From Brachyspira catarrhinii (GTDB lineage Bacteria > Spirochaetota > Brachyspiria > Brachyspirales > Brachyspiraceae): a stretch of DNA of 14,818 bases. The translations under genes and the position numbers were made by a program. The DNA is taken from NCBI RefSeq assembly GCF_005518285.1, contig NZ_SJDU01000014.1, positions 1 to 14,818 of the forward strand. The letters are read 5' to 3'. This document shows positions 1 through 14,818 of this stretch, one piece after another (the first letter of the stretch is position 1; the number at the start of each line of letters is the position of its first letter). Below the pieces are notes generated by a model. It ran no database searches. It was not told the origin of the DNA and saw nothing but the letters and a program-made list of their open reading frames with translations.

Positions 1-1
1 A

Positions 2-436: not shown

Positions 437-503
437 ATATAGTTATAAAACTACTTACGAGGGAACTTTGACTAATTATACTCCCACTACTTCTGGAAGT
501 TAA
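396..503 (+). pseudogene. Displaced 3' end of the preceding gene (out of frame)
   Basis: Reading in frame from 396 gives about 35 residues starting GVSADYVVDG and ending TPTTSGS before TAA at 501-503. The composition (Tyr, Thr, Asn, Ser) matches the upstream part of the gene, and the stop lies 29 bases before the terminator stem. It lacks its own start and ribosome binding site, so it is best read as the natural C-terminus separated by a frameshift in the AT repeat. One extra AT unit (eight instead of seven) would join the two frames. Confidence 0.55.
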
Positions 504-532
504 TATAGTTTTTGTTTAAACTTCTTAAGATT

Positions 533-563
533 AAAAGACATCGCAATAAGCGGTGTCTTTTTT
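533..563 (+). terminator. Rho-independent terminator, probably bidirectional
   Basis: A 12-base stem (533-544 with 550-561, one G-T wobble) surrounds an AATAA loop and runs into six T residues. It lies 29 bases after the TAA at 503. The left arm begins AAAA, so the minus-strand transcript also ends in a U run, and the same hairpin could stop transcription arriving from csaA. Confidence 0.85.
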
Positions 564-571
564 ATTTAATA

Positions 572-647
572 GTCGTTGCGAGGCTATTTTATAGCCGAAG
601 TAATCTATTTAAATTGGATTGCTACGACTTTTGCCGCACAATGACGG
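572..647. repeat. Dispersed palindromic repeat, copy 1
   Basis: The ends GTCGTTGCG (572-580) and CGCACAATGAC (635-645) are imperfect inverted repeats. Inside them GAAGTAATCT (597-606) opposes GGATTGCTAC (616-625), again inverted. A small perfect hairpin GGCTAT/ATAGCC (582-587 and 591-596) sits between. The pattern 'cattgcgag...gaagcaatc...gattgcttc...cgcaatgac' is a widespread intergenic repeat type in many bacteria, and this is a decayed copy. No coding potential was seen. Confidence 0.6.
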
Positions 648-657
648 TAAAATACTT

Positions 658-769
658 GCCATTACGAGCGACTGATAAGGAAGAGAAGTAATCTACAAAA
701 AAGAAAATTTATTATTTTGGATTGTTCGCCGTATTCGGGCAAAAGTCTCATCAGAGCTTTGCAATGACT
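658..769. repeat. Dispersed palindromic repeat, copy 2
   Basis: This second, longer copy shares GAAGTAATCT (685-694) and TTGGATTG (717-724) with copy 1 in the same order. Its ends CCATTACGAG (near 659-668) and TTTGCAATGAC (near 758-768) are inverted. The two copies lie head to tail in the space between the terminator and the 3' end of csaA. The 504-784 stretch contains only the terminator and these two repeats; I see no gene in it. Confidence 0.55.
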
Positions 770-784
770 AAATTTATTCAATAA

Positions 785-1132
785 TCAACCTATCGGAATT
801 CCATTTTCGCAATCTTCATTAATAGTCAATAATGCCACTTCTCCATTTTCTTTTACCGCGCCCAAAATTAAACATTCCGAGAAAAAATTCGCTATTTGTT
901 TTTTAGGAAAGTTTACGACAGCGACTATTCTTTTCCCTATCAAATCCTCTTTTTTGTATAATTTTGTGATTTGAGCCGAAGAGACTTTTATTCCCAAACT
1001 TCCGAAATCTATCTTCAATTTATAAGCGGGCTTTTTTGCCTGTGGAAAATCTTCCGCTTCGATTATAGTTCCCGTTCTTATATCTAAAGCCGAAAAATTA
1101 TCGAAAGAGCATTCTTCTTTTATAGAGTTCAT
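785..1132 (-). CDS. csaA: CsaA-type tRNA-binding-domain protein (putative export chaperone)
   Basis: This 115-residue protein consists of a single tRNA-binding OB-fold domain, the usual length for CsaA. It shows the family signatures: FSALDIRTGTIIEAEDFP (residues 13-30), AKKPAYKLKIDFG (32-44), SSAQITKLY (51-59), IGKRIVAVVNFP (65-76) and SECLILGAVKENGEVALL (85-102), ending NGIPIG. The domain is homologous to the C-terminal domain of methionyl-tRNA synthetase. Bacillus CsaA has been described as a dimeric cytosolic chaperone that binds SecA and preproteins, but most members are untested. The start is fixed by AAAAGGA six bases upstream of the ATG on the minus strand. The gene is divergent from the ATP-grasp gene and stands alone. 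Family assignment is sure; cellular role is less so. Confidence 0.93.
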   Translation of the reverse strand: MNSIKEECSFDNFSALDIRTGTIIEAEDFPQAKKPAYKLKIDFGSLGIKVSSAQITKLYKKEDLIGKRIVAVVNFPKKQIANFFSECLILGAVKENGEVALLTINEDCENGIPIG

Positions 1133-1163
1133 TTTAAATCCTTTTAAATTTTTTATTATTATA

Positions 1164-1192
1164 ATTATACAATAGTTTTATATATATTTAAA
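1164..1192 (-). promoter_or_regulatory. Likely csaA promoter
   Basis: On the minus strand a perfect TATAAT (1164-1169) is preceded, after 17 bases, by TTTAAA (1187-1192), four of six matches to the sigma-70 -35 box. Transcription would start near 1157, giving a leader of about 25 bases that includes the AAAAGGA site. In such AT-rich DNA chance matches are common, hence moderate confidence. I found no convincing -35/-10 pair for the divergent gene in the same 136-base gap. Confidence 0.4.
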
Positions 1193-1268
1193 TTTATTTT
1201 GTTTACATATAAAATAAAAGTTAATAAAAAATATTAACGAATAAAAATTATAAATACAAGGCATATAA

Positions 1269-3449
1269 ATGAAAAATAAAAAAATAATTATAATAGGGGC
1301 GGGACTTTTGCAAGTTCCAGCTATACAGATAGCTCAAGATATGGGATTATATACAATCGTTTTTGATTATAATAAAGACGCGCATGGAATGAAAATAGCC
1401 GATTTGCCAATGGTTGTTTCGACTCGAGATGTTGACGGAAGCGTTAGAGCGGCGCGGGATTTAAGCAAACAGATGGAAATAAACGGAGTAATCACGGTTG
1501 GAACGGACGCGTCAACCACAGTAGCCGCAGTCGCAAACGCGCTCGGACTCCCTGGAAATAGATTTGAAGACGCTTACGCCGCCTCGAATAAAATCAGAAT
1601 GAGAGAGAGATTCAAAAAAAATAATGTTCCGCAACCAAATTTTTTCCCCGTTTGGAATTACGAAGAAACTATCGAAGCGTTTAGACATTTGAATAAACCT
1701 GTCGTTTTAAAACCCGCCGACAATATGGGAGCGAGAGGAGTAATGAAAGTGGAAAACGAAAGTGATATACTTGCAGCTTTTAATAGAGCGAAAAGTTCTT
1801 CTCCTTCTGGCGAGGTTATAATAGAAGAATATATGGACGGTCCCGAACTTTCGATAGATATGCTTATATACGATAACGAAATTTATGTTACGGGAGTAGC
1901 GGACAGAATAATAGAATATCCGCCATTTTTTATAGAAACGGGACATATTATGCCTTCCAATTTGGATAAAGATAAAATAGACGATGCGATTAAAGTTATG
2001 AAGGACGGAATAAAAGCGCTTAATCTAAAAATCGGAGCGGCTAAAGGAGATATTAAAGTAACAAAAAACGGCGCTATGGTTGGAGAAATTGCCGCAAGAT
2101 TGTCGGGCGGATTTATGAGTGCGTATACTTATCCTTTATCGACTGGAGTCAATTTGATTAAAAACGCGATAGAAATAGCCTTGGGAAATCCTCCGAGCGA
2201 CTTAAAACCAAAATGGAATAAAGTTTCTGTGGAAAAAGCATTTTTGCCGGGAACGGGAATAATTGAATCCATAGACGGAATTGAAAAAGCAAAAAATATA
2301 AACGGAATTAAAGAAGTATTTATAAAAACTAAAGTTGGAGATATACTCGTTCCTCCGACAAATAATCTCGATAAAGCTGGAAATGTTATCGCCGTTGGAA
2401 GCACGAGAGACGAGGCTATAGCGATTGCAAATAAAGCGATTGATTCCGTTCATTTTAGATTAACGGACGAAAAAAACTTGACTATGGAAGAGATAAAGAG
2501 ATTGGCTCAAGAAAAATTGGCTTCAAAATTTAATCTTTCTTATTTGTTTAGATATTGCACGGATGAAGAAACGGGACTTTCAAATTATATTTTCTGCCCG
2601 AATATAATTCATGAAGAAAAACCGATAAAATTAGAAACTACGATTTTCAATACTCATGTCGCTCAACCTATAATAATCGACACAATTCATAATCTTAAAG
2701 ACGCTTTAGACGGAATAATGGATATAAGAGAATATTATCAAATAACGATGGATGTCGCTTCGAGCTGCGAAGTCCTTGCAATTTTAAACGATTTTAATAA
2801 CGAGGAATTATTCGAACTTTCAATTAAAATAATCAAAGAGCATAAAAGAGGAATAATCATGCTAAACGGCAATAACTCCGAAGAAGTTTTGACGCATAGA
2901 GCGAAAGAATCTCAAAAAAACGGAGCATGCGCGGTAGGAATAGATTTGTCGTATTGTTATGATATTAATTCTATAGAAAAAAATAAAATATTTATAAAAA
3001 CCGAAAAAGAATTGAATAATTTAAGAAAAAGTTTGGAAATTCCGCTTATAATAAAAGGCTTGTCAAACGATAAAGATATAGAAAATATATTTAATAAGAA
3101 TATAAATAATCTATATTTTTCAAATAATAACAAGTATTTATTAAAAGGTATAAAAAAAGTTTCCGATACTATAAATAAGATTGCATTAAATTTACATGGC
3201 AGTCGTCATAAACCTCAAATAAACGCGCTTGCCGAATCTCCAAGATTTGGAAGCGATTTGTTTAAGTATTTTACGCTTGGAGCGAACGCCGTTTGTATAA
3301 CGGAAGAGAGTTTTATCGCAACTGTGAGTAAAGGCAGAAAAGGTTTGGAGTATATGATATATTCCAATAAAGAAGAACTTGAAAAAATGATGAAAGTTTT
3401 TGGGAAATCGGAATTAAAATTCGACAGCGATATTATTTATAGAAATTAG
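1269..3449 (+). CDS. ATP-grasp ligase fused to degenerate FMN alpha-hydroxy-acid oxidase-like barrel
   Basis: 726 residues in two modules. Residues 1-398 are a complete ATP-grasp enzyme of the CarB/PurK/biotin-carboxylase-like group: Rossmann start IIIIGAGLLQVPAI (6-19), ATP-lysine segment PVVLKPADNMGARGV (144-158), VIIEEYMDGPELSIDM (183-198), metal/ATP segment GEIAARLSGG (272-281) and a C-terminal piece GNVIAVGSTRDEAIAIA (371-387). Such enzymes join a carboxylate to an amine or thiol through an acyl phosphate; the substrate here is unknown. Residues about 402-715 follow the layout of lactate/glycolate oxidases (LTMEEIKRLAQEKL, ETTIF..AQPIII, IPLIIKG at 591-597, PRFGSDLFKYFTLGANAV at 658-675). 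The phosphate-binding Arg (659) and a Lys (596) remain, but the catalytic SNHGGRQ motif reads SNNNKYL (618-624), losing the His and Arg. AAGG lies seven bases before the ATG. It is first in a three-gene cluster. Confidence 0.8.
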   Translation: MKNKKIIIIGAGLLQVPAIQIAQDMGLYTIVFDYNKDAHGMKIADLPMVVSTRDVDGSVRAARDLSKQMEINGVITVGTDASTTVAAVANALGLPGNRFEDAYAASNKIRMRERFKKNNVPQPNFFPVWNYEETIEAFRHLNKPVVLKPADNMGARGVMKVENESDILAAFNRAKSSSPSGEVIIEEYMDGPELSIDMLIYDNEIYVTGVADRIIEYPPFFIETGHIMPSNLDKDKIDDAIKVMKDGIKALNLKIGAAKGDIKVTKNGAMVGEIAARLSGGFMSAYTYPLSTGVNLIKNAIEIALGNPPSDLKPKWNKVSVEKAFLPGTGIIESIDGIEKAKNINGIKEVFIKTKVGDILVPPTNNLDKAGNVIAVGSTRDEAIAIANKAIDSVHFRLTDEKNLTMEEIKRLAQEKLASKFNLSYLFRYCTDEETGLSNYIFCPNIIHEEKPIKLETTIFNTHVAQPIIIDTIHNLKDALDGIMDIREYYQITMDVASSCEVLAILNDFNNEELFELSIKIIKEHKRGIIMLNGNNSEEVLTHRAKESQKNGACAVGIDLSYCYDINSIEKNKIFIKTEKELNNLRKSLEIPLIIKGLSNDKDIENIFNKNINNLYFSNNNKYLLKGIKKVSDTINKIALNLHGSRHKPQINALAESPRFGSDLFKYFTLGANAVCITEESFIATVSKGRKGLEYMIYSNKEELEKMMKVFGKSELKFDSDIIYRN

Positions 3450-3457
3450 GCGGCTTT

Positions 3458-4465
3458 ATGGAGTCAAAAAAAATTAATTTATCGAAATCGTATTTATACG
3501 GATTTTTTGCTTCTATGATATGCGCATTGATATATAGCGCAGTATTTATTCCGATTTATATTCTTTTAATATCTTCCAATCCTCAAAATTTTTTCGTATA
3601 TTTATTATACACTCTCGATATTTGGGTTTGGATTTGGATTGCGGTTTCAATATTATACGCTTTTATAATAGTTTTGATGTTTAATATAGAAAACGATTTT
3701 ATAAACGGGGCGAGCAATTTTTTATTTTTTATCGTGACATCGGCGATAGTTTTGCTTTCTTTAAGCTATATTCCAGAAATACAAAAGATTTTATACAGAG
3801 GAGAATATACTTTTTATTTTGTAATACTTTCAGTAGCTTTATTTTTTATATCTATACAACTTACTTATTCTATAAAAAAAATGATAGTTTTCATGTATAA
3901 AACAATTATTTATAATTTGGGATACGAAAACGAAAATAACGAAGAATTTGGAGAAGAAAACATTAACAATGTTGAATCGGAAATATTTTTTGACACTCTA
4001 AAAAATATTATTTCTTTTTCACAAAGACATGAATACGCTATAGGACTTATCGGTTTTAAAATATCAAACCATAAAAAAATAATGGAAAAATGCGGAGATT
4101 TGGGTTATAAAAATATTAAAGAAGAATTGATAAAATTTATAAAACAAAATTCGAGGACGGGCGAAAATCAATGTTTGATAGAAAATAACACGATATACGC
4201 TTATATTTATTCGGACGAGGAAGACGCTTGGAAAACCATTAGAAGATATTTTAAGGGATTAAAGAATTATAATTTTGAATATAACGGCGAAAATATCGAT
4301 ATTGAAATAACTATGGCGATAAGCGGTTATGACTTTTCAATTAATAAAATGAATAAAATATCGACTTTTGTGATTAAAGATAATTTGATTTCCAAACTTC
4401 AAGAGGCTTTGATTGAAGCGGAAGAAACGGATAATCCTGTCGTATTTTATGAAAAAGGAATATAA
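3458..4465 (+). CDS. Membrane protein with degenerate GGDEF-like cytoplasmic domain
   Basis: 335 residues. Four hydrophobic segments (about 12-38, 46-76, 86-104, 118-136) form a compact membrane unit, followed by an acidic linker (155-175). Residues about 180-333 have the layout of a GGDEF domain: AIGLIGFKISNHKKIMEKCG (194-213) corresponds to the LDIDxFKxINDxxG strand-helix, a regular alternation follows, and the end (LQEALIEAEETDNPVVFYE) matches the LxxADxALYxAKxxGRNRV tail. At the hairpin where GGDEF should be, the protein reads ENNTI (242-246), and the metal-binding acidic residues are not evident. Cyclic-di-GMP synthesis is therefore unlikely; ligand sensing or a structural role is possible. 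It starts eight bases after the ATP-grasp stop, with the AGG of its ribosome site overlapping that stop, and is followed two bases later by the TPR gene. The domain call is by pattern and moderate. Confidence 0.6.
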   Translation: MESKKINLSKSYLYGFFASMICALIYSAVFIPIYILLISSNPQNFFVYLLYTLDIWVWIWIAVSILYAFIIVLMFNIENDFINGASNFLFFIVTSAIVLLSLSYIPEIQKILYRGEYTFYFVILSVALFFISIQLTYSIKKMIVFMYKTIIYNLGYENENNEEFGEENINNVESEIFFDTLKNIISFSQRHEYAIGLIGFKISNHKKIMEKCGDLGYKNIKEELIKFIKQNSRTGENQCLIENNTIYAYIYSDEEDAWKTIRRYFKGLKNYNFEYNGENIDIEITMAISGYDFSINKMNKISTFVIKDNLISKLQEALIEAEETDNPVVFYEKGI

Positions 4466-4467
4466 TT

Positions 4468-5829
4468 GTGGAAGTTTCATTAATATTTATAATAATCTTT
4501 ATAGTCATATTGGCTGTTTCTACTAATTATATAATTAGAAGCGGAACTTACGGAAATAAATTAAAAAGAATAACTCAATTATACAACGAAAATAATTATG
4601 ACGCGGCTATGCGCGAGATAAACGAACTCGACCCTAAACATAAAAAAGAACCTTATATATTGTGGGTTAGCGCGAATTTATATTATAAACAGCAGCAATT
4701 TATACTAGCTATGGCGGCTTTGCAAAATATAATAGATTCGGGAGCTTATACGAAAGAAGTAAGTCAATTAAATGTGCGAGAATTTTTAGCGAAAATCTAC
4801 GAAGAGACGGGAAATTATAAAAAAGCTATAGACGAATATAACGAAATAATAAGATTGAAAGACCAAGATTTTGATTCTTTATATAAAGCGGGAACTATTT
4901 CCTACGAAGCGGGAGAATGGGCTTTGGCTCAACAATATTTTAGTTTGGCGGTAGCTCGAAACGACAGCAATCCTCAATTACTTTATATGCTTGCAAATTG
5001 TTATTATCAAATGCGTTCTTATCATGCGGCTCAACAGCATATTCAACATGCTTTGGATTTGGACCCTACTAACGTTCAATATCATTTGCTTATGGGAGAG
5101 GTTTTATCGGCATCGAGAGATTTTCAAAACGCCGTTGTGGAATTGGAAATCGCTTACGGAAGCAATACTTTGGAAAATAAAGACGCCATTTCTTTACAGC
5201 TTGCCAATTCTTATTTCGAGCTTGGAAATTACGATAAAGCGAAAAGTTATTACGAGCAGGTTTTGAATAAAGAAGATATACCGAACGAGAAAGTGGTTGA
5301 CGAAAGATATAGATACGCCGAGACTTTGGTAAAAAATAAGCAGTTTGAAAACGCCGTTCGACAGTGGGAAATAATAAAAGCGACAAGAAATATTTATTTG
5401 GATATAGACCATAAACTAAAAACCTACAGTTCGATTATCGCAAATAACGCTTTAAGAACCGCTTTGGAGATGGATGTTGTAGATTATTTGGAAAAACATT
5501 TTTATAGAGTGCTTACTTTGAACGGATATATAGTGACCGACCATAGCAAAAAATCCGATACTTTGGTATTTTTCGTTACGATAAAGAAATTCGGCTCGGA
5601 AGGACAATCTTATAAAAGCACATTCGCTCTCGATACTTCGGGCTATCCTATGAGGCAGGATACGGTTGACCAATTTGTAGATTACGCGAGAGTTTATAAA
5701 AGCGCGCACTCTTTCTTAATCAGTATCGGCGGTTTCGCTCCAAATTTAAAAACGGACGACACTATAGCGATAATAGAGCCAGACAGATTCGAGGCTATAA
5801 TCGAAGGCGTAATATCGTTTAGCGATTAA
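4468..5829 (+). CDS. Membrane-anchored TPR protein with possible Mrr-like C-terminal domain
   Basis: 453 residues. Translation probably begins at GTG 4468, two bases after the previous stop, with AAGG nine bases upstream; translational coupling is likely. Residues 3-22 form one hydrophobic segment, so the rest probably faces the cytoplasm or periplasm as a tethered domain. Residues about 31-305 carry some eight tetratricopeptide repeats; the clearest are 105-130 (LAKIYEETGNYKKAIDEYNEII), 171-202 (LLYMLANCYY...ALDLDPTN) and 242-268. These serve protein-protein contacts. Residues about 332-450 (DVVDYLEKHFYRVLTLNGY, TFALDTSGY, DQFVDYARVYKSAHSFLISIGGF, IAIIEPDRFEAII) resemble the order of elements in Mrr-type restriction-endonuclease folds. 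The QxK catalytic strand is replaced by ALD, so no nuclease activity is expected. That last assignment is tentative. Confidence 0.7.
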   Translation: MEVSLIFIIIFIVILAVSTNYIIRSGTYGNKLKRITQLYNENNYDAAMREINELDPKHKKEPYILWVSANLYYKQQQFILAMAALQNIIDSGAYTKEVSQLNVREFLAKIYEETGNYKKAIDEYNEIIRLKDQDFDSLYKAGTISYEAGEWALAQQYFSLAVARNDSNPQLLYMLANCYYQMRSYHAAQQHIQHALDLDPTNVQYHLLMGEVLSASRDFQNAVVELEIAYGSNTLENKDAISLQLANSYFELGNYDKAKSYYEQVLNKEDIPNEKVVDERYRYAETLVKNKQFENAVRQWEIIKATRNIYLDIDHKLKTYSSIIANNALRTALEMDVVDYLEKHFYRVLTLNGYIVTDHSKKSDTLVFFVTIKKFGSEGQSYKSTFALDTSGYPMRQDTVDQFVDYARVYKSAHSFLISIGGFAPNLKTDDTIAIIEPDRFEAIIEGVISFSD

Positions 5830-5868
5830 TTTATAATCTAATCTTTATAAAATTAAATAAAAAATCTA

Positions 5869-5897
5869 TTGAAGTTTATCAAATTATTAATTATAAT
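5869..5897 (+). promoter_or_regulatory. Promoter of the Gfo/Idh/MocA gene
   Basis: TTGAAG (5869-5874) and a perfect TATAAT (5892-5897) are separated by exactly 17 bases, the optimal sigma-70 layout. The start would be near 5904, about 64 bases before the ATG at 5968. The pair lies in the 138-base gap after the TPR gene, so the oxidoreductase is probably a separate transcription unit. Confidence 0.6.
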
Positions 5898-5967
5898 CTT
5901 CTTAAAATAAATAAATTTTATTAAATTTTATAAATTAAAGAAATCAAAAAATAGGAATTTTTATTTT

Positions 5968-6930
5968 ATGGAAAAAGTTAATATAAGTCTTATCGGCGTT
6001 GGAAGAATGGGACAATTTCATCTCAATGTTATAAATCAAATAAACTCCGTCAATTTAACTGGAATTTACGATGCGGACGAAAAACATTTAAACGAAATTT
6101 CAAGCAAATATAATTTAAATAGTTTTAAAAGTTTGGACGATGCTATAGACAAATGCGATGCCGTTATAATTGCAAGTCCGACAAAATTTCATTTCGATAT
6201 AGCGAAAAAATCCGTTCAAAAAGGAAAACATGTTTTAGTGGAAAAACCTATGACGGAAAATTTTATTCAAGCCGAAGAATTGGAAGCGATTGTAAAAGAA
6301 AAAAATATTATATTTCAAGTCGGGCATGTCGAAAGATTCAACGGAGCGGTTCAAGAATTGCATCATATAATAGAAAATCCTTATTTGATAGAGGCGAGAA
6401 GATTAGCTCCTTTCACTCCTCGCATAACCGATGTGGGAGTCGTATTCGATATTATGATTCATGATTTGGATATTGTAACTTCTTTGGTGAAAAAACCTAT
6501 AATAAGATTTTCTGCGAGCGGGAAAAGAATAAAAACTAAAAACGAAGATATTGCGAGTGCGTTATTGGAATTTGAAGGAAATACAATCGCCACGATAAGC
6601 GCAAGCAGAGTGACGCAGGAAAAAATCAGAACTTTAGCGATTAGCACGGATGAGGCTCATTTTATATTGGATTACGCCACGCAGGATATTACTATACATC
6701 GTCAGGCGGCGAGTCAAAGCAAAATAAAAACTTCGATAGGAATAAATTATACTCAAGAATCGATAATAGAGAGAGTGTTTATTCACAGAGATAATCCGCT
6801 CAAATTGGAAGACGAACATTTTGCCAACTGCATATTAGGAAAAGATAAAAAATTGGTTTCGATAGAAGATGATGTCCGCACGATTAAACTTACCGAAGAT
6901 ATTTTAAATAAAATAAAAGAAACTTGGTAA
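5968..6930 (+). CDS. Gfo/Idh/MocA family NAD(P)-dependent oxidoreductase (possibly nucleotide-sugar dehydrogenase)
   Basis: 320 residues, full length for the family. The N-terminal Rossmann fold carries GVGRMG (10-15) with DADEKHL closing the second strand. The family EKP motif is at 92-94 (VLVEKPMTENF), with its catalytic Lys93. The substrate domain has VFDIMIHDLDIV (159-170) containing the Asp and the HD pair expected at the active site. The FTPRITDVGVVFDIMIHDLD stretch recalls members that sit beside lpx genes in Gram-negatives, including GnnA, the UDP-GlcNAc 3-dehydrogenase that leads to diaminosugar lipid A in Leptospira and Acidithiobacillus. A nucleotide-sugar substrate is therefore a reasonable inference, not a demonstration: no transaminase or lpx gene is visible here. 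The start is supported by AGGAA ten bases upstream. Its neighbours give no pathway clue. Confidence 0.85.
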   Translation: MEKVNISLIGVGRMGQFHLNVINQINSVNLTGIYDADEKHLNEISSKYNLNSFKSLDDAIDKCDAVIIASPTKFHFDIAKKSVQKGKHVLVEKPMTENFIQAEELEAIVKEKNIIFQVGHVERFNGAVQELHHIIENPYLIEARRLAPFTPRITDVGVVFDIMIHDLDIVTSLVKKPIIRFSASGKRIKTKNEDIASALLEFEGNTIATISASRVTQEKIRTLAISTDEAHFILDYATQDITIHRQAASQSKIKTSIGINYTQESIIERVFIHRDNPLKLEDEHFANCILGKDKKLVSIEDDVRTIKLTEDILNKIKETW

Positions 6931-6948
6931 TAATTTTTTGTAATAATA

Positions 6949-6976
6949 TTGACATTAAAATCTATTAAACTATAAT
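6949..6976 (+). promoter_or_regulatory. Near-consensus promoter of the mgl operon
   Basis: A perfect TTGACA (6949-6954) and a perfect TATAAT (6971-6976) are spaced by 16 bases. The start is expected near 6983, giving a leader of only about 23 bases that carries GGAGAG (6995-7000) five bases before the ATG of mglB1. The strength suggests high basal expression unless a repressor acts; I see no clear operator palindrome over it. Confidence 0.8.
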
Positions 6977-7005
6977 TTAAATATATTTCAAATTGGAGAG
7001 AAAAT

Positions 7006-8043
7006 ATGTTAAAAAAAATTATTGCCTTATTTTTTGCTTTCATTATTTTATTAGTTTCATTTATAGGTTGTTCTGAAAACGAAACCCAAAAAGACGGGCA
7101 GCCTCGACTCGGAATAACGATTTACAGCTATAACGATAATTTTTTGTCTTTTATGAGAAGAAATATCGAATCGATGCTAACGGGTAAAGCTTCTTTTATT
7201 ATGAACGATTCGGAAAACGACCAAGCGAAACAATACGACCAAATAGACGCGGCGATTCAAAGAAAAGTTGACGCTTTGGCTATCAATTTAGTCGACCCGA
7301 TGTCAGCGAATATGGTTATCGATAAGGCGAAAGCTTCTGGAATTCCCGTGATATTTTTTAATATAGAACCTCGATTGGAACATATTATGAGTTACGATAA
7401 AGTTTGGTATGTCGGAACGAGAAGCAGAGAATCGGGAGATATTCAGGGAGAGATGGTATTAAACGCATGGAAGTCAAATCCTAAATGGGATAAAAACGGA
7501 GACGGAAAAATTCAATATCTTTTATTAAGAGGTTTGGCGGGACATCCAGATACGGAAGGAAGAACGGAAAGAATAAAAGCGGTATTGACAAATAACGGCA
7601 TAGTTTTAGAACAGCTTGACGAACAAACCGCCAATTGGGATATTCTTCAGGCTCAAAATATAGCTAACACTTGGATAAAAAAATTTGGAGACAGTATAGA
7701 GTTTATTTTTTCAAATAACGATTCTATGGCTTTGGGCGCTTTAAAGTCCATTCAAGCGCAAGGCTATAATATAGGAAACGAAAATAAATTTATTCCAATA
7801 GTGGGAGTTGACGCTATTCCAGAAGTTATAGAAGAGATAAGAAAAGGCTCGATACTCGGAACTGTTTTACAAAGTCCTAAAGACCAAGCGAGAGCGGTTG
7901 TCGATATGGTTTTAAATGTCGCTTCGGGAAAAGATGTTTTGGACGGAACGGATTATACGCTTGACGATGTGAAAGCGGTTAGAGTTCCTTATAAAGCGAT
8001 TACGAAAGAGAATATAGAAGAGGCTTTGGAGGCTTATAATTAA
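7006..8043 (+). CDS. mglB: Galactose/glucose-type ABC transporter substrate-binding lipoprotein, paralog 1 (MglB1)
   Basis: 345 residues, periplasmic-binding-protein type 1 fold. A lipoprotein signal (MLKK, hydrophobic 5-20, SFIGC with Cys22) anchors it to the membrane. It is clearly related to E. coli MglB: YSYNDNFLSF (41-50), ALAINLVDP (90-98), AGHPDTEGRT (178-187), NWD (210-212), FSNNDSMALGA (235-245), IVGVDAIPE (265-273). Of the E. coli sugar contacts, Asp14, Phe16, Asn91, His152, Asp154, Arg158, Trp183, Asn211 and Asp236 have counterparts (D44, F46, N119, H180, D182, R186, W211, N238, D269). Asn256 is Gln289 and Lys92 is Ile120. The calcium loop DKNGDGKIQ (162-170) and its Glu232 are kept. 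It delivers sugar to MglC/MglA. Ligand may differ from paralog 2. Confidence 0.92.
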   Translation: MLKKIIALFFAFIILLVSFIGCSENETQKDGQPRLGITIYSYNDNFLSFMRRNIESMLTGKASFIMNDSENDQAKQYDQIDAAIQRKVDALAINLVDPMSANMVIDKAKASGIPVIFFNIEPRLEHIMSYDKVWYVGTRSRESGDIQGEMVLNAWKSNPKWDKNGDGKIQYLLLRGLAGHPDTEGRTERIKAVLTNNGIVLEQLDEQTANWDILQAQNIANTWIKKFGDSIEFIFSNNDSMALGALKSIQAQGYNIGNENKFIPIVGVDAIPEVIEEIRKGSILGTVLQSPKDQARAVVDMVLNVASGKDVLDGTDYTLDDVKAVRVPYKAITKENIEEALEAYN

Positions 8044-8089
8044 AATTATAATAAATACTTTATATAGAAATATAATAAAGTAGAAAAAC

Positions 8090-8117
8090 TTGATTTAAAA
8101 ATAAAAATGTATATACT
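8090..8117 (+). promoter_or_regulatory. Likely second promoter, before mglB2
   Basis: TTGATT (8090-8095) and TATACT (8112-8117) are 16 bases apart, four and five of six matches to consensus. The start would be near 8124, about 42 bases before the ATG of mglB2. The gap of 122 bases between the two binding-protein genes, with no strong terminator, lets mglB2 be read both from here and from the first promoter. Confidence 0.5.
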
Positions 8118-8165
8118 TAATAATTAGAATATTAATTAAATTTATTTTCAAGGAGAATTTAAATC

Positions 8166-9212
8166 ATGAGAAAATCTTTAATCTTTATTGTAAGCGCGAT
8201 GCTTATAATATCCTCCGTTTTGATAATGTCATGCGGAGACAATGGCGGAACTACCGTGAGCGCGGACGCGCCGACTATCGGAGTTACAATATACCGATAC
8301 GATGACAATTTTATGTCTTTCGTTAGAAGGAATATTGAAAGTCTTATTTCTGGAAACGCTCATTTGATAATGAACGATTCTCAAAACAATCAGGCTCAGC
8401 AAAACGACCAAGTGGATGTTATGCTAAACAGAGAGGCTAAAGCTTTGGCGATTAATTTGGTTGACCCTCAAGCGGCTCAAACTATAATCGATAAGGCGAA
8501 AGCGAAAGACATTCCCGTAATTTTCTTCAACAAAGAAGCGAGTCCTCAAGCTATGGCAAGCTACGATAAGACTTGGTATGTGGGAACTAAAAGCGAAGAA
8601 TCGGGCGATATGCAAGGGCAGGTTGTGGTAAATACTTGGAGAGCGAATCCTTCTTGGGACAAAAACGGAGACGGAGTCATACAGTATGTTTTGATAAAAG
8701 GCGAACCTGGACATCCCGATGCCGAAGCGAGAACATCGCATGTAACGAAATATATAACGGAAAACGGAATCAGAGTTCAAAGATTGGAAGAATTAAACGC
8801 AAATTGGGATACTGCGAGAGCGAAAGATATTGTTGACGCTTGGATGCAAAAACATGGCGATAAAATAGAATTCATATTCTCAAATAACGATTCTATGGCT
8901 TTGGGCGCTTTGCAATCCATTCAGGCTTTGGGATACAATCAAGGCGACAATAATAAATTTATTCCAATCGTGGGAGTTGACGCTATTCCAGATATGTTAA
9001 ACGAAATCAAAAAAGGCACGATTGTAGGCTCTGTTTTAAATGACGCTTTGAATCAGGCAAAAGCCGTTGTCGATTTGGCTTTGAATGTTTCGACTGGAAA
9101 AGAACCTTTGGAAGGAACGGATTGGACATTGGACGAAGTTAAAGCGGTTAGAGTTCCTTATGTTCCTATAACGATAGACAATATAGAAGTTGCAGAAAAT
9201 ACTTATAAATAA
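8166..9212 (+). CDS. mglB: Galactose/glucose-type ABC transporter substrate-binding lipoprotein, paralog 2 (MglB2)
   Basis: 348 residues with a lipoprotein signal ending LIMSC (Cys23). It is closer to E. coli MglB than paralog 1: IGVTIYRYDDNFMSFVRR (38-55) and KGEPGHPDAEART (178-190) are almost or wholly the same. All the sugar contacts I could align are present: D47, F49, N122, K123, H183, D185, R189, W214, N241, D272 and N292. The calcium loop DKNGDGVIQ (165-173) with Glu235 is intact. Binding of D-galactose and/or D-glucose is therefore well supported. It shares long stretches with paralog 1, including a 32-base identical run (8880-8911 against 7711-7742), showing tandem duplication. AAGGAG lies ten bases before the ATG. 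A terminator hairpin follows, before mglA. Confidence 0.94.
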   Translation: MRKSLIFIVSAMLIISSVLIMSCGDNGGTTVSADAPTIGVTIYRYDDNFMSFVRRNIESLISGNAHLIMNDSQNNQAQQNDQVDVMLNREAKALAINLVDPQAAQTIIDKAKAKDIPVIFFNKEASPQAMASYDKTWYVGTKSEESGDMQGQVVVNTWRANPSWDKNGDGVIQYVLIKGEPGHPDAEARTSHVTKYITENGIRVQRLEELNANWDTARAKDIVDAWMQKHGDKIEFIFSNNDSMALGALQSIQALGYNQGDNNKFIPIVGVDAIPDMLNEIKKGTIVGSVLNDALNQAKAVVDLALNVSTGKEPLEGTDWTLDEVKAVRVPYVPITIDNIEVAENTYK

Positions 9213-9227
9213 ATTCTCATAACTTTA

Positions 9228-9261
9228 GGGGGTATTAAATTCTTTAATATCCCCGTTTTTT
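9228..9261 (+). terminator. Intra-operon terminator/attenuator between mglB2 and mglA
   Basis: Twelve bases (9228-9239, starting GGGGG) pair with 9243-9254 (ending CCCC) across a TTC loop with one G-T wobble; G then six T residues follow (9255-9261). It begins 16 bases after the mglB2 stop. I found no good promoter between it and mglA (9296), so it more likely lowers than ends transcription, giving more binding protein than ATPase and permease. Confidence 0.85.
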
Positions 9262-9295
9262 ATATTATAAGTTTTAGTTGTAAGGAAAATGATTT

Positions 9296-10801
9296 ATGAG
9301 TAATGATAAAAAAGTCATTCTTGAAATGAAAAACATCTCCAAACGATTTCCCGGCGTTCAGGCTTTGGATAACGCTCAATTAACCGTTAAAGAGGGCGAA
9401 GTTGTGGCTCTTATGGGAGAAAACGGAGCGGGAAAATCAACTTTAATGAAGTGTTTATTTGGAATTTATCATAAAGACGGCGGCGAAATATTTTTGGACG
9501 GAAAAGAGGTTAATTTTACATCTCCTAAACAGGCTTTGAATAACGGCGTGGCAATGGTGCATCAGGAATTAAATCAAGTGAGGCAGAGAAGCATCGCCGA
9601 CAATATTTGGCTTGGAAAATATCCGACTAAATTGTTTATGGTTGACGAAAAAAAGATGTTTGACGCCACTAAAGAAATTTTTGATGATTTGGAAATTCCG
9701 TTAAATCCAAAAACTAAAGTAAATACTTTGTCAGTATCCGAAATGCAAATGGTTGAAATTGCAAAAGCGGTTTCCTACAATTCTAAAATATTGGTGCTTG
9801 ACGAACCTACAAGTTCTCTAACCGAAAAAGAAGTTGCAAAATTATTCAAAATCATAAGAAAACTTCAGAGTAGGGGAGTCGGTATGATTTATATCTCTCA
9901 TAAAATGGAAGAGATACTTCAAATTTCGGACGAAGTGACTATAATGCGAGACGGAAAATATGTGGCGACAACTCCGTCAAAGGATTTAACTACAGATATT
10001 ATAATCAAGCAGATGGTTGGACGAGATTTGACTAATAGATTTCCTCCAAAAACCAATGCTCCCGCGGAAAACATTTTGGAGATTAAAAATTTTACGGCTT
10101 ATTATCAGCCTTCATTAACCGATGTCAATTTTAATGTAAGAAAGGGCGAAATATTCGGAATTGCGGGATTGGTAGGAGCTAAAAGAACGGAAATACTTGA
10201 AAGCATTTTTGGTATGCGAACTTTATCGAGCGGGCAGATAGTCAAAAGAGATATGATGATAAAAAATAATACAACGAGAAAGGCTATAAAGCATGGTTTT
10301 GCGCTTGTGACAGAAGAGAGAAGACAGACGGGAATATTCGCTATGCTTTCTATTAATTTTAATTCGATTATAGCTAATATCGACAATTATAAAGGTAATT
10401 TCGGATTTTTGAATAATAAGAAAATGCATGACGACACGATGTGGGTAATAGACAGTATGCAAGTTAAAACTCCTTCGGAAAAAACTATGATACAGTCGTT
10501 ATCGGGCGGGAATCAGCAGAAAGTTATACTCGGAAGATGGCTTTTAAGCGCTCCAGATATTTTAATGCTTGACGAACCTACTCGTGGAATAGATGTCGGC
10601 GCAAAATACGATATTTATAAATTAATTATAGATTTGGCTACGGAAGGAAAAACTATTATTATGGTAAGCTCCGAGATGCCCGAATTGTTGGGAATAACGG
10701 ACAGAATAATGGTTATGAGTAACGGAAAGGTTGCGGGAATAGTCGATACGAAAGACACAAATCAGGAAGAGATAATGTCTTTGTCGGCTAAATATTTATG
10801 A
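9296..10801 (+). CDS. mglA: Sugar ABC transporter ATP-binding protein MglA (two ATPase domains)
   Basis: 501 residues with the two fused nucleotide-binding domains typical of Mgl/Rbs/Ara/Xyl importers. Domain 1: Walker [10 protein letters not shown] (41-49), Q-loop VHQE (88-91), signature region [14 protein letters not shown] (145-158; the usual LSxGxxQ is modified, as is common here), Walker [12 protein letters not shown] (165-175), switch His202. Domain 2: degenerate P-loop [10 protein letters not shown] (291-300) without the usual GKST, intact signature LSGGNQQKV (402-410) and Walker [14 protein letters not shown] (421-433). An imperfect second P-loop is normal in this family. It acts on the cytoplasmic face to drive uptake through MglC. 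AAGGA lies nine bases upstream; an ATG at 9289 is followed at once by a stop and is not the start. The 63-base gap to mglC suggests co-transcription. Confidence 0.95.
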
Positions 10802-10864
10802 TTTAAAATTTATTTAAAATAAATTTTTTAAAATAATTAAAAAATAAAAAATAAGGAAAATATT

Positions 10865-11887
10865 ATGTCGGAAGAAAAATCTAATCTTAAAACAATCAAA
10901 ACTTTTATACTAAATAACGCGATATTTGCGGCTTTGCTTATAATATTAATCGGTATTATAATCAAAGAGCCTTCGTTTTTCAGGTTAAGCAATTTTTTAA
11001 ATATATTCGCTCAAGCCTCGACTCGTATGATTATCGCGGTTGGAATCGGAACTTTGCTCGTCACTCAGGGAAACGACCTCGGAGCGGGCAGAGCGGTTGG
11101 ACTTGCGGCAGTGGTGAGTGCGTCTTTGTTGCAATCGCTCGACAATCCGACAAGAATGTATCCTAATTTGCCTTTGCTTCCCGTTATTCTTCCAATACTT
11201 TTGGTTATGATTATACTTATGGTTTTCGGGCTTATAAACGGAATAATAATTTCAAAATTGTATGTGACGCCTTTTATTGCCACTTTGGGAATGCAGCTTA
11301 TTCTTTACGGAGTGACAAGCACTTATTTTGACAGACCTCCTTACGGCGCGCAACCAATAGGCGGACTCGACCCGAGATTTACGAATTTGGCTCAAGGCGG
11401 AATAAGAATCGGAAACTATACGATTTCATATTTGATAATATTTGCCGTGATAATAACTCTTATAATGTGGGTTATTTGGAATAAAACGAAACTTGGAAAA
11501 AATATTTTTGCAGTCGGTGGAAATCCAGAAGCCGCCGCGGTATCGGGCGTGAATATTCCTCTAACTTTAATGATTGTCTACACTATGGCGGGCGCGTTAT
11601 ACGGAATAGCTGGCTCTTTGGAAGTTGCGCGTGTGGGTTCGGCTACAAACAATTTGGGAAACGGCTACGAACTTGACGCTATTGCCGCATGCGTTGTCGG
11701 AGGCGTTTCATTTTCTGGCGGAATAGGTTCTATTTTGGGAATAGTTTCGGGCGTTTTAATATTTCAGGTTATAAACTACGGCATGTCATTTGTCGGCATC
11801 TCTCCTTATATGCAATATATAATCAAAGGAGCGATAATAATAGCCGCAGTCGCAGTCGACACTCAAAAATACTTGAAAAAGGTTTGA
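10865..11887 (+). CDS. mglC: Sugar ABC transporter permease MglC
   Basis: 340 residues, the usual size for the MglC/RbsC permease family (BPD_transp_2). Many hydrophobic segments are visible (about 17-34, 55-90, 105-130, 135-152, 186-206, 232-250, 270-302, 310-332). Family landmarks include RMIIAVGIGTLLVTQGNDLG (54-73), FGLINGIIISKLYVTPFIATLG (121-142, the conserved TPFIxTLG), the ATPase-contact loop GKNIFAVGGNPEAAAVSGV (211-229) and AIAACVVGGVSFSGGIGSILG (272-292). It forms the membrane channel, probably as a dimer, with MglA on the inside and MglB lipoproteins outside. AAGGA lies seven bases before the ATG. It is followed after six bases by a small membrane-protein gene, without a terminator. 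Confidence 0.95.
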   Translation: MSEEKSNLKTIKTFILNNAIFAALLIILIGIIIKEPSFFRLSNFLNIFAQASTRMIIAVGIGTLLVTQGNDLGAGRAVGLAAVVSASLLQSLDNPTRMYPNLPLLPVILPILLVMIILMVFGLINGIIISKLYVTPFIATLGMQLILYGVTSTYFDRPPYGAQPIGGLDPRFTNLAQGGIRIGNYTISYLIIFAVIITLIMWVIWNKTKLGKNIFAVGGNPEAAAVSGVNIPLTLMIVYTMAGALYGIAGSLEVARVGSATNNLGNGYELDAIAACVVGGVSFSGGIGSILGIVSGVLIFQVINYGMSFVGISPYMQYIIKGAIIIAAVAVDTQKYLKKV

Positions 11888-11893
11888 TTATTT

Positions 11894-12031
11894 ATGACGG
11901 AAGATAACGGCCCTTTTAATAGAGAATTTAACAAGCGAGAAACCAGTAGAAGAACTATAAAATCTTGGCTATTTTTAGGTTTGATTTTTCTTATATTCGT
12001 TATTGTAGAGTTGATATATAGATTTGGATAA
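11894..12031 (+). CDS. Small single-span membrane protein (45 residues)
   Basis: An ATG six bases after the mglC stop opens a 45-residue frame ending in TAA at 12029-12031. The protein has a polar, charged N-terminus (about 1-24, net basic at RETSRRTIK) and one hydrophobic segment, WLFLGLIFLIFVIVELIY (25-42), then RFG. By the positive-inside rule the N-terminus would be cytoplasmic. An AAGG sits about 12 bases upstream, inside the mglC end, which is far for an initiator and suggests coupling to mglC. The position and sensible composition argue for a real gene. It may be an accessory subunit or regulator of the transporter, but no family is recognised. Confidence 0.6.
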   Translation: MTEDNGPFNREFNKRETSRRTIKSWLFLGLIFLIFVIVELIYRFG

Positions 12032-12055
12032 ATTATTTTAATTAAGGCGATATTA

Positions 12056-14476
12056 ATGTTGGATTTTGATTTTTCATTATTGGACGATAAGGATTTTAAA
12101 GAGGATTCGGTTCGAGAAGATATAATAGCTCCTTTATTAAAAGAATTGGGATTTGAAAGCAAAAAATCGCAGGAAGGATTAACTCTCAAACGTTCGGTTG
12201 CCTTAAATAGCGATACCATTTTGGGTTCTAATAAATCTATAAAAGCGAAAGATTTGATTATTCCAGATTATGTTTTATATATAGATGGCAAACCCCAATG
12301 CGTATTGGACGCTAAAAAACCTGATGTTAATATAAGATATAAAACAAAAAGCGAGAGACAAGCCTTTTATTATGCAAGCAATCCTAAAATGAAAGCTCCT
12401 TTTTACGCTTTATGTAATGGCAGAAGTTTAATATTATATCAAACTTCAAGCCAAGAATTAATATTAGAGATAGATTTGGAGAATGAATTAGACGATAAAT
12501 TTTATATATTAAGAAAATATATTATTACTCCTATAGAAGATTTAAAACAATATAATAACCCAAAAAATCCTAAAAAACCTGACGAATGGTATCTTCGTAG
12601 AAAATTGCCAAGACCTATCGAGAAACCTCAAAAACAGTCCGAGTCTAGATATTATGGATGTATGGCTTATTTTACTCGTCAAAGTTGGGATATTGTTACT
12701 CAAAATATTAAAAATTTTACGGGAGAAAAAGATATAGTTTTTGACCCTTTCGGCGGAACGGGAGTAACGGCAATCGAAGCTATGATGAATAATCGCTTGG
12801 GAATTCATACGGATTTAAATCCTCTTTCCATATTTATGACAAAGGCTTTGACTTCAAAAGTCGATTTGGGCGATTTATACGATTTGGGCGAAGATATTTT
12901 AAGCGAATTTGAAAAATTAAGACCTAAAAACGAAAAAGAAGCGAAAGCGATATTAAAAAACGCTAAATATTTTCCAAACGCTATAGATAGAGAATTTGGC
13001 GAAACGGCAAGCGTAAAAAAGCAGGAAGAAATATTATGGATACCGAAAGACGAGATTTTGCCGAAAGGAAGCGATGTCGAAACCGTATTAAAATTATTTT
13101 CGCCTATTCAATTATCGGAGTTGGCTATTTTAAGAAAACTTATAATAAGAAAAACCACTAAAAAAAGAGAAATGCGATATTCTTTACTTTTGGCTTTTTA
13201 TAATACGATTACTTTAATTAATTTAACATATCATAATACGCCAAGCGGAGGACCCGCTTCAGCCGTCATTCGATATTATAGATATAGAATTGCGCCAAAA
13301 CCAGATTTTTTAGATACTGCAAAGGTTTATAGACAAAAATTAAAAAGAGTTATAAAAGGCAAGCAAGAACTTGATTCTTCCTCTCATTATTTTTATAAAA
13401 CTTATTTTGAGCCATTAAGCGAAACGATTAAAAATTTTAAAGGTTCTATGATTTCCCAAAGAGACGATTTGAATAATGTCGGAACAAAAGAAAATGTTAT
13501 AAACGGAGAGAAATTTTTTCAAGCGGACGCTACAAATCTTAAAGAGATTAACGATAAAAGCATAGATTATATTTATACCGACCCGCCTTACGGGGCTAAA
13601 ATTCCATATTTGGATTTAAGCGCTATGTGGAACGCTTGGCTCGATTTTCCTGTAGATAAAAGTTTGAAAGAAAAAGAATGCATAGAAAAAGGAAGTTTGA
13701 ATAAAAGCAGAGACGAATATTATACTTTAATGAAAGAAAGCCTTAAAGAAATGTATAGAGTTTTGAAATTTAATCGTTGGTTAAGTTTCGTGTTTCAACA
13801 TCAAGACCCGAAACTTTGGCAACTTTTGGTTGACGCCGCCGAAGAAGTAGGTTTTGAATATGCGGGAAGCGTTAGACAAAATAACGGACAAACTACATTT
13901 AAGAAGAGACAAAATCCTTTTTCCGTATTAAGCGGACAATTAATTTTGCATTTTAAGAAAGTAGATAATCCGAAAACGAGAGCGAGAGAGGTTTTGGGAG
14001 ATTTAAGCTACGATTTGGTTTTAAATGATATTGAAGCTACGATAGTTAAATATAACGGAGCTACAATCGAAGAGCTTTACGGAGATTTGACAAAAAGAGG
14101 ATTGGAAAACGGATATTTGCATCTTTTGGCAAAAATGGGAGATAATTTTTTAATTTTCGTCAATCAAAATTTTGAATATAATATGCAAGATAAAAAATAT
14201 AGAATTAAATCGGGAACTAAATTCAAAGGTTCTTCCGTTCCGCTTGAAGATAGGACGAGATATTTTATAGTTTCTTATCTTGGAAGATGCGAAATCGAGG
14301 GAAGAAAAGCGATTTTTGACGAGATTTGCCTTGAAGTCATACCTTTATTGAAAAACGGAGTGACGCCAGACGATAGATTTATTAAAGAAATTTTGGAAGA
14401 AGTCGCCACTTTAAATAAAAAAACTGGCGGTTGGAAATTGAAAACGAGCGAACCAAAATTATTTGACGATATTTAG
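12056..14476 (+). CDS. Restriction-modification fusion: HsdR_N-like nuclease plus DPPY DNA methyltransferase
   Basis: 806 residues. Residues 15-145 resemble the N-terminal nuclease domain of type I HsdR: SVREDIIAPLLKELGF (18-33), then PDYVLYIDGKPQCVLDAKKP (70-89), a PD-(D/E)XK core with D71, D85 and K87, then RQAFYYASN (101-109), the Q-containing helix. Residues 200-635 form an amino-methyltransferase: YFTRQSW (205-211), AdoMet motif I FDPFGGTGVTAIEA (229-242), motif II-like HTDLNPLSIF (251-260), catalytic motif IV YTDPPYGAKIPYLDLS (507-522) and SVRQNNGQTTFKKR (605-618). The order I then IV, about 275 residues apart, leaves room for a target-recognition region between. DPPY suggests N6-adenine. 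Residues 640-806 are unassigned. No helicase is present. AAGG lies before the ATG (12044-12047). It is 24 bases after the small membrane gene and 18 before a second methyltransferase. Confidence 0.82.
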   Translation: MLDFDFSLLDDKDFKEDSVREDIIAPLLKELGFESKKSQEGLTLKRSVALNSDTILGSNKSIKAKDLIIPDYVLYIDGKPQCVLDAKKPDVNIRYKTKSERQAFYYASNPKMKAPFYALCNGRSLILYQTSSQELILEIDLENELDDKFYILRKYIITPIEDLKQYNNPKNPKKPDEWYLRRKLPRPIEKPQKQSESRYYGCMAYFTRQSWDIVTQNIKNFTGEKDIVFDPFGGTGVTAIEAMMNNRLGIHTDLNPLSIFMTKALTSKVDLGDLYDLGEDILSEFEKLRPKNEKEAKAILKNAKYFPNAIDREFGETASVKKQEEILWIPKDEILPKGSDVETVLKLFSPIQLSELAILRKLIIRKTTKKREMRYSLLLAFYNTITLINLTYHNTPSGGPASAVIRYYRYRIAPKPDFLDTAKVYRQKLKRVIKGKQELDSSSHYFYKTYFEPLSETIKNFKGSMISQRDDLNNVGTKENVINGEKFFQADATNLKEINDKSIDYIYTDPPYGAKIPYLDLSAMWNAWLDFPVDKSLKEKECIEKGSLNKSRDEYYTLMKESLKEMYRVLKFNRWLSFVFQHQDPKLWQLLVDAAEEVGFEYAGSVRQNNGQTTFKKRQNPFSVLSGQLILHFKKVDNPKTRAREVLGDLSYDLVLNDIEATIVKYNGATIEELYGDLTKRGLENGYLHLLAKMGDNFLIFVNQNFEYNMQDKKYRIKSGTKFKGSSVPLEDRTRYFIVSYLGRCEIEGRKAIFDEICLEVIPLLKNGVTPDDRFIKEILEEVATLNKKTGGWKLKTSEPKLFDDI

Positions 14477-14494
14477 AAAATTATAAAAAAATTC

Positions 14495-14818
14495 ATGAAT
14501 TATATCGGTTCTAAATTTACGCTTTCGTCTTTTTTGGAAGAAAATATAAAACAAACTCTTAAAGAAAACGATTCAAAAAATTTGTCCGAATGTATATTTT
14601 GCGATTTGTTTACGGGAACTGCGGCGGTAAGCAAAATATTCAAAACTCAAGTCAAAAAAATTATAGCGAACGATAAAGAATATTACAGTTTCGTTTTGGC
14701 AAAAAATTATATCGGAAATCATAAAACTATAAAAAGAAAAAACGAACTTATAGAAAAATTAAATAATTTAGAAAAAGTAAAATCAAAAATCAGTTTTAAT
14801 TATTCGACATGCGGAAAA
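14495..14818 (+). CDS. D12-class N6-adenine DNA methyltransferase, 3' end beyond window
   Basis: The frame opens at ATG 14495 and remains open for 108 codons to the window end. It begins MNYIGSKFTLSSFL, the usual start of D12-class (Dam/FokI-type) adenine methyltransferases, followed by AdoMet motif I CDLFTGTAAVSKIFK (residues 36-50) and ANDKEYYSFVLAKNYI (59-74), where the acidic residue would bind the AdoMet ribose. The visible end, FNYSTCGK, would lead into the family's conserved block before motif IV; the catalytic DPPY lies outside. It sits 18 bases after the nuclease-methyltransferase gene, without an obvious Shine-Dalgarno, so it may be translated by coupling or leaderless-type re-initiation. 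Its likely role is protection of the second strand or half-site of the same target. Confidence 0.85.
   Translation, partial: MNYIGSKFTLSSFLEENIKQTLKENDSKNLSECIFCDLFTGTAAVSKIFKTQVKKIIANDKEYYSFVLAKNYIGNHKTIKRKNELIEKLNNLEKVKSKISFNYSTCGK

Follow-up and report, generated by a model that had tools for sequence, protein, structure and literature searches.

Single-chain restriction-modification enzymes of Type IIG are gamma-class methyltransferases with N-terminal cleavage domains, as set out in excerpts of PMC3874165, and a phase-variable enzyme of this type has been described from Campylobacter jejuni (PMC4889913, in excerpt). The methyltransferase lineage of Type-3 bacteriophage exclusion (BREX) systems is called less explored in the excerpted text of PMC12839542, where its member BrxXI is described as a methyltransferase core with a large target-recognition domain (TRD) insert between strands 2 and 3 and a C-terminal helical region. 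The BrxXI insert carries a four-cysteine Zn motif. Here we describe a gene that shares features with both groups. It lies near the end of a 14,818-nucleotide stretch of Brachyspira catarrhinii DNA (contig NZ_SJDU01000014.1, positions 1 to 14,818; the whole stretch is called the window below), on a contig that is one of 987 in the assembly and ends at 14818. The gene encodes an 806-residue fusion of a PD-(D/E)XK nuclease domain and a methyltransferase. In our judgement the protein is quite probably a complete, stand-alone restriction-modification enzyme that works like Type IIG from a single chain, with a methyltransferase akin to BrxXI and two variable modules.

Architecture and kinship of the fusion protein

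The gene is a single open reading frame (ORF) with an ATG start and no internal stops (Table 1). An earlier reading of the window made from the letters only (the sequence-only reading) had proposed that it joins an HsdR_N-like nuclease to a DPPY methyltransferase, and had suggested profile searches as a check. Pfam, together with the active-site conservation described below, confirms this. HSDR_N (PF04313) matches residues 62-132 (E 3.6e-8; 33.9 bits, cut-off 25.1), N6_N4_Mtase (PF01555) matches with E 7.7e-16 and a best stretch of 168-255, and UPF0020 matches around the DPPY motif (residues 486-516, E 2.3e-6). MethyltransfD12 (PF02086) reaches only E 0.033 against the fusion itself and matches the second gene, downstream. 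The gamma-class model PF02384 is absent from the Pfam matches of the fusion up to E 1. Motif I (DPFGGTG) precedes motif IV (DPPY), the order from which the methyltransferase had been placed, correctly, outside the gamma class, and both sequence and model give the fusion the order X, I, TRD, IV with DPPY that is characteristic of alpha-class amino-methyltransferases. In the AlphaFold2 model (mean predicted local distance difference test score, pLDDT, 82.4) the Rossmann strand order is unpermuted, with a single large insert. A Foldseek search of the PDB with the whole model returned the HsdR fragment 3h1t as its top match (E 5e-4), the sole match under E 0.001. The 167-residue C-terminus, which had been left unassigned, is mainly helical in this model and contains most of the hypervariable module B described below. 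Folding the C-terminal domain alone without an alignment gave a pLDDT of 47.7; that model was not used, and we make no claim of a new fold.

Conservation was examined in an alignment of 145 homologues, comprising the window protein, 26 ORFs from related loci and 118 database proteins. Sequences under 700 residues were omitted (P0029 and P0032 of the 120 database proteins), as were the copies at 9 of 35 loci, being split, short or at a contig edge. D71 occurs in 144 homologues, the remaining one having a gap, and position 85 is acidic in all 145 (D in 142, E in 3). K87 and Q102 are present in 145 and Y106 in 144, and the stretches beside the nuclease active site vary while the PD-(D/E)XK and QxxxY elements stay complete. 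In the methyltransferase, D230, F232, G233, G234 and G236 of motif I and D509, P511 and Y512 of motif IV are invariant across a 67-row alignment (A1). Since the active site is conserved across so many homologues, the HSDR_N match is more than a chance similarity. The sequence-only reading had placed D71, D85 and K87 correctly; its alternative, in which the N-terminal domain is only a DNA-interaction module, is made unlikely by the same conservation.

The front half of the protein looks Type IIG-like, and the back half looks like BREX-type or related Type II methyltransferases. The PADLOC model for Type IIG restriction endonuclease-methyltransferases covers residues 10-133 only (E 2.8e-9). The best PADLOC model for the protein is PglXI (E 5.2e-34, best stretch 436-630), and the runners-up are Type II methyltransferase models, the best of which is PDLC03312 at E 1.8e-28. 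An hhalign comparison of 67 family members with 30 PglXI proteins gave a probability of 99.9 and E 8e-35 over 416 columns, spanning residues 196-662. Judged by these profiles, the methyltransferase is not of the gamma class but kin to PglXI/BrxXI of Type-3 BREX and of the BREX-related DUF499/DUF1156 systems. Several observations count against so specific a placement. In the copy from a second Brachyspira genome, G021, PDLC03312 comes closer to PglXI than in the window protein (4.4e-33 versus 5.5e-34), and Type II methyltransferase models lie near the PglXI E-values in the four family members tested with PADLOC, so that BrxXI may be no closer a relative than a stand-alone Type II methyltransferase. 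The four-cysteine Zn motif of BrxXI is missing from the insert, there being no cysteine between residues 202 and 542. Sequence matches of the fusion to solved structures are confined to short methyltransferase-motif stretches. The Type II methyltransferases PDLC03312 and PDLC03319, compared through models only and with E-values near that of PglXI, share the same core.

Type IIG enzymes cut at a fixed distance from their site and are stimulated by SAM. Like the Type IIG (IIC) enzymes Eco57I, BpuSI, MmeI and the C. jejuni enzyme (Cj0031), the fusion is one chain in which an N-terminal nuclease is followed by an amino-methyltransferase, and its nuclease part matches the N-terminus of the PADLOC Type IIG model. 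It differs from them in having DPPY with an insert ahead of motif IV, whereas Type IIG enzymes are gamma-class, NPPY and HsdM-like (excerpts of PMC3874165). With BrxXI/PglXI and the DUF1156 methyltransferases it shares the core, the insert between strands 2 and 3 and the C-terminal helical region (PMC12839542, in excerpt), but unlike BrxXI/PglXI it has an N-terminal nuclease. It has in common with HsdR of Type I systems the HSDR_N nuclease domain and the fold match to 3h1t; in contrast to Type I systems there is no helicase domain among its Pfam matches and there are no separate M and S subunits, and the genes upstream are those of a galactose ATP-binding cassette (ABC) transporter. The combination as such is one that departs from the gamma-class feature of Type IIG, shares the BrxXI-type methyltransferase and comes without BREX genes beside it. 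Among the literature matches listed, none deals with a fusion of an HSDR_N nuclease and a PglXI-type methyltransferase, a search that did not extend to most subscription journals or to REBASE, which may well list members as putative enzymes. The database names of P0090 and P0120 already mention an HsdR N-terminal domain.

Hypervariable modules and a possible mode of action

Modules A (residues ~386-430) and B (residues ~641-760) are hypervariable in closely related proteins and assort independently. Identities were taken over residues 381-440 for A and 646-760 for B, and modules were called alike at 0.8 or above and different below 0.6. Two copies in one Helicobacter muridarum genome (L022 and L025) have an identity of 0.51 over 381-440 and 0.29-0.33 over 646-760; of the other 11 blocks before residue 646, seven are at 0.87-0.98 and the rest at 0.56-0.77. 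The pair L027/L028 has A at 0.52 and B at 0.33-0.46, with the linker at 131-175 also at 0.50, and three copies in one Chitinivibrionia bin have A at 0.37-0.45 and 646-760 at 0.59-1.00. Among the 145 proteins, 720 pairs have core identities of 0.85-0.995, and in these the identities of A and B are bimodal. Both modules are alike in 318 pairs, only A is different in 68, only B in 17 and both are different in 172, the other 145 having at least one intermediate module. P0001/P0011 is an example of a pair that differs mainly in A, and P0006/P0015 of one that differs mainly in B. When 923 pairs were scored for identities below 0.5, A fell below in 238 and B in 251; the counts for control stretches of 45-46 residues were 2 (66-110), 1 (266-310), 0 (300-344) and 0 (336-380), and that for residues 761-806 was 21. 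Within 31 Brachyspira-like proteins, one set of A and B allele classes occurs in all four combinations.

These patterns make it likely that A and B are recombining target-recognition modules, with a putative role in reading DNA. Some features of the data weigh on the other side. The pairs are not independent, and the distinct proteins behind them number 15 for the B-only class, 43 for the A-only class and 71 for the class in which both differ. The four-gamete set is the only one among all 145 proteins; its rarest combination is a single protein, P0012, and it leans in part on this protein and on P0013 and P0015, which are metagenome proteins and possible assembly chimeras. The linker at 131-175 itself varies strongly, falling below 0.5 in 352 of the 923 pairs, and therefore variability alone is no proof of target recognition. 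Residues 461-480 form a third variable stretch, which diverges mostly but not always with B. Its mean identity is 0.25-0.39 in the 17 pairs that are B-different and A-alike, and it correlates at 0.65 with B and at 0.60 with A. Assignment of this stretch to module B was not upheld as a rule, given these near-equal correlations and an identity of 0.98 over block 441-490 in L022/L025, a pair that differs in B. Independent movement of specificity segments with respect to the core is known from Type I HsdS (excerpts of PMC3874165) and from H. pylori methyltransferases with domain movement (PMC3983042, in excerpt); in the present family, by contrast, the two modules are parts of a single nuclease-methyltransferase chain that belongs to another lineage.

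A protein built in this way would be expected to methylate a base, most likely adenine, at its exocyclic amino group within a specific site, and to cut near unmodified sites through its N-terminal PD-(D/E)XK domain, using Mg2+ and needing neither ATP nor a helicase. The fused nuclease would take the place of the ATPase and helicase partners of BREX-type systems. The target would be set by at least two modules, A within the strand 2/3 insert and B as the C-terminal domain, perhaps with residues 461-480 as well. Recombination would swap A and B independently, an exchange that would generate new specificities combinatorially within the family. If the fusion cuts, the same one-gene design arose on two methyltransferase lineages, the second being a relative of the one in Type-3 BREX; if true, this would offer a small handle on how the BrxXI-type lineage finds and marks its targets, and existing relatives, through their natural module differences, would offer a direct test of how the reading of the target is shared out between the modules. 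More tentatively, the family might constitute a distinct helicase-free one-gene class on a BrxXI-type methyltransferase, the smallest working BREX3/BR form, in which two exchangeable modules read a two-part target and specificities are predictable from sequence.

Neighbouring genes and rival explanations

Neighbours were collected at 34 related loci, from Helicobacter, Bacteroidota, Ignavibacteria, Treponema, Chitinivibrionia and others, as up to two ORFs per side (fewer at contig ends). Of the 117 ORFs selected, 110 were scanned with PADLOC; seven exceeding 900 residues (by eye metH-, uvrA- and carB-like, and others) were excluded, and the neighbours of the G021 copy (L002/L055), which do include a methyltransferase, lie outside this set. 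The scan found 23 PADLOC families, each in one to three members. None of the 110 ORFs matches a methyltransferase model, and none is a BREX component, distant genes not having been searched for partners; BrxC, PglZ and BrxHII, which distinguish Type-3 BREX, are not among the 23 families. In the window itself the upstream DNA holds the transporter and other genes, and the downstream DNA is cut. The sole helicase-model match is to GajB, a UvrD helicase (one ORF, E 3.3e-6), which agrees with the proposal of a helicase-free locus, in that no conserved helicase partner accompanies the gene. BREX or Type I partners beside the gene were accordingly rejected. Two Type II restriction endonuclease families have one neighbour each, and the one that was traced is L025:12183-12839. 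In this H. muridarum locus the next gene beyond the Type II endonuclease encodes a methyltransferase. In two Helicobacter loci (L023:10676-12711 and L025:10652-13716) a gene that by eye is purB-like comes after the fusion, and in L025 the Type II endonuclease and methyltransferase stand behind it; the purB flank is a possible hot spot for restriction genes.

The solitary context bears on each of the other explanations. A gene that mostly stands alone could encode a methyltransferase of the orphan regulatory or phasevarion type, with a nuclease-like domain that aids DNA binding and no longer cuts, and a poly-G break in one Helicobacter copy recalls phase-variable methyltransferases. We regard this as unlikely, because the nuclease elements stay complete in 144-145 of the 145 homologues while flanking stretches vary, and because variable modules and patchy, partly decayed copies suit restriction better than conserved regulation. 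Far less probable still is that the fusion serves as a subunit in some larger complex of the BREX or Type I kind, with ATPase or helicase partners elsewhere in the genome. Such a role would accord with the kinship to BrxXI and with a nuclease domain named for the Type I R subunit, but not with the lack of BREX components and the one weak GajB match among the scanned neighbours, nor with a phage contig (L105) that has the fusion between structural genes without such partners.

The sequence-only reading had also recognized a second methyltransferase of a different class in the next gene, which is borne out by a D12 match over the 108 codons before the contig end (Table 1), and had suggested that the two could act as one system on an asymmetric site, in which case the D12 enzyme would protect the second strand. 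The genes are 18 bp apart on the same strand; methyltransferases acting on both strands accompany monomeric Type IIG enzymes such as BpuSI (excerpts of PMC3874165); and the G021 copy too has a methyltransferase gene nearby, albeit of another class. The partnership is nonetheless improbable and was rejected, since the scanned neighbourhoods of the relatives are devoid of methyltransferase models, G021 carries the fusion without a D12 gene there, and the D12 relatives of the genus (41-51% identical, and present in 11 of the 12 stretches retrieved to look for them) stand at other sites. Because the contexts of the relatives and the sites of the D12 relatives differ in this way, the D12 gene is best called a neighbour and not a proven partner. 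For the stand-alone, Type IIG-like enzyme that we favour, the same finding carries a cost, in that the accompanying methyltransferases known for Eco57I and BpuSI (PMC3874165, in excerpt) are mostly absent near this family.

Elsewhere in G021 there is a D12 match of 31 residues, 81% identical to the D12 protein of the window and contained within a 45-residue frame (L071:6414-6506), which lies behind genes that by eye look like hsdM and hsdS of Type I. One D12 relative, L076, has an upstream companion ORF with a match to the EVE domain below its cut-off (E 4e-4).

Distribution and genomic sites

The gene is patchy in its distribution, with gain and loss. A match to the fusion is found in 29 of 121 Helicobacteraceae genomes, several of them being fragments or containing stops, and full-length copies occur in 2 of 26 genomes of the genus Brachyspira, those of the window and G021, which are 76% identical. 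A tree of 36 proteins places the Brachyspira copies with those of Helicobacter, apart from the two Treponema copies (split 100/100), which points to transfer between phyla; their position within the Helicobacter copies is weakly supported (88/79). At L045, from Helicobacter, the frame is split at a G11 tract (8931-8941); another Helicobacter locus, L050, has a G10 tract (8939-8948) with the frame intact, and L021 has G9 just past an ATG near the gene start. Breaks were inspected at five loci where the ORF is split or an extra one is present (L024, L030, L035, L045 and L053), and poly-G stands at the break only in L045. The break in L053 is a masked N run, that in L035 is without a long homopolymer, and the extra ORF of L024 and L030 is a short 3' piece. 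Positions 12001-14818 of the window contain no G/C run of 7 or more and no A/T run of 9 or more.

One full-length match was found among at least 29 viral-contig loci. On contig L105:1-5317 (IMGVR_UViG_3300001580_001338) a 755-residue copy lies between terminase and portal genes, and the contig also holds a small excisionase-like ORF; this copy may represent a single-gene restriction system that travels as cargo between head genes. The plasmid and phage-record collections contain no homologue at E 1e-20 or better. In Zixibacteria (L053:7926-10252) the methyltransferase core has a relative that lacks the N-terminal nuclease and bears a different C-terminal extension. The extension has a weak DruA match (E 0.0076), the masked N run lying inside this gene, and hints that effector domains may be exchanged on this core.

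In the window genome the fusion follows a galactose ABC transporter operon, whose permease MglC, next to the fusion, has 98% identity to its Brachyspira aalborgi counterpart. Among 25 genomes of the genus with MglC, the fusion adjoins it only in the window, within the ~1.5 kb examined, L096 ending too soon to tell. The G021 copy is at a different site, beside a beta-type methyltransferase and an ORF read by eye as HNH, which has no Pfam match at cut-off and no PADLOC match. At the mglC site, which in G021 lacks the gene, the local alignment of the window with G021 stops at 12039, 16 bases ahead of the fusion start codon, so that the left border of the acquired stretch lies at the 46-residue ORF that both genomes have behind mglC.

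Table 1. Features at the fusion locus, in window coordinates
Feature	Position	Strand	Residues or extent	Basis and remarks
Single-chain nuclease-methyltransferase gene	12056..14476	+	806 aa	ORF, Pfam, active-site alignment, model
PD-(D/E)XK nuclease domain (HSDR_N), N-terminal	12083..12475	+	~10-140	PF04313, PADLOC Type IIG, Foldseek
Nuclease active site D71, D85-x-K87, Q102xxxY106	12266..12373	+		Conservation over 145 homologues
Methyltransferase motif I, DPFGGTG	12743..12763	+	230-236	Sequence, alignment A1
Insert of ~220 residues, core strands 2/3	12854..13513	+	~267-486	Position of BrxXI TRD insert; model, hhalign, PMC12839542 (excerpt)
Variable module A, candidate target-recognition module	13211..13345	+	~386-430	Pairwise block identities
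Third variable stretch	13436..13495	+	~461-480	Pairwise block identities
Methyltransferase motif IV, DPPY	13580..13591	+	509-512	Alignment A1
Variable module B, candidate target-recognition module	13976..14335	+	~641-760	C-terminal domain; weaker variation up to ~790
Neighbouring D12 methyltransferase	14495..14818	+	First 108 codons	PF02086, E 2.9e-14; cut by contig end; not judged part of the enzyme
ORF with hydrophobic stretch	11894..12034	+	46 aa	Behind mglC, in DNA common to the window genome and G021

Elsewhere in the window, positions 1269-3449 encode a 726-residue protein with an ATP-grasp/LAL_C2 ligase and a C-terminal FMN_dh-like domain, which looks to be an unusual fusion, and positions 7006-9212 hold a tandem pair of genes for periplasmic sugar-binding proteins (Peripla_BP_4) ahead of one ABC transporter.

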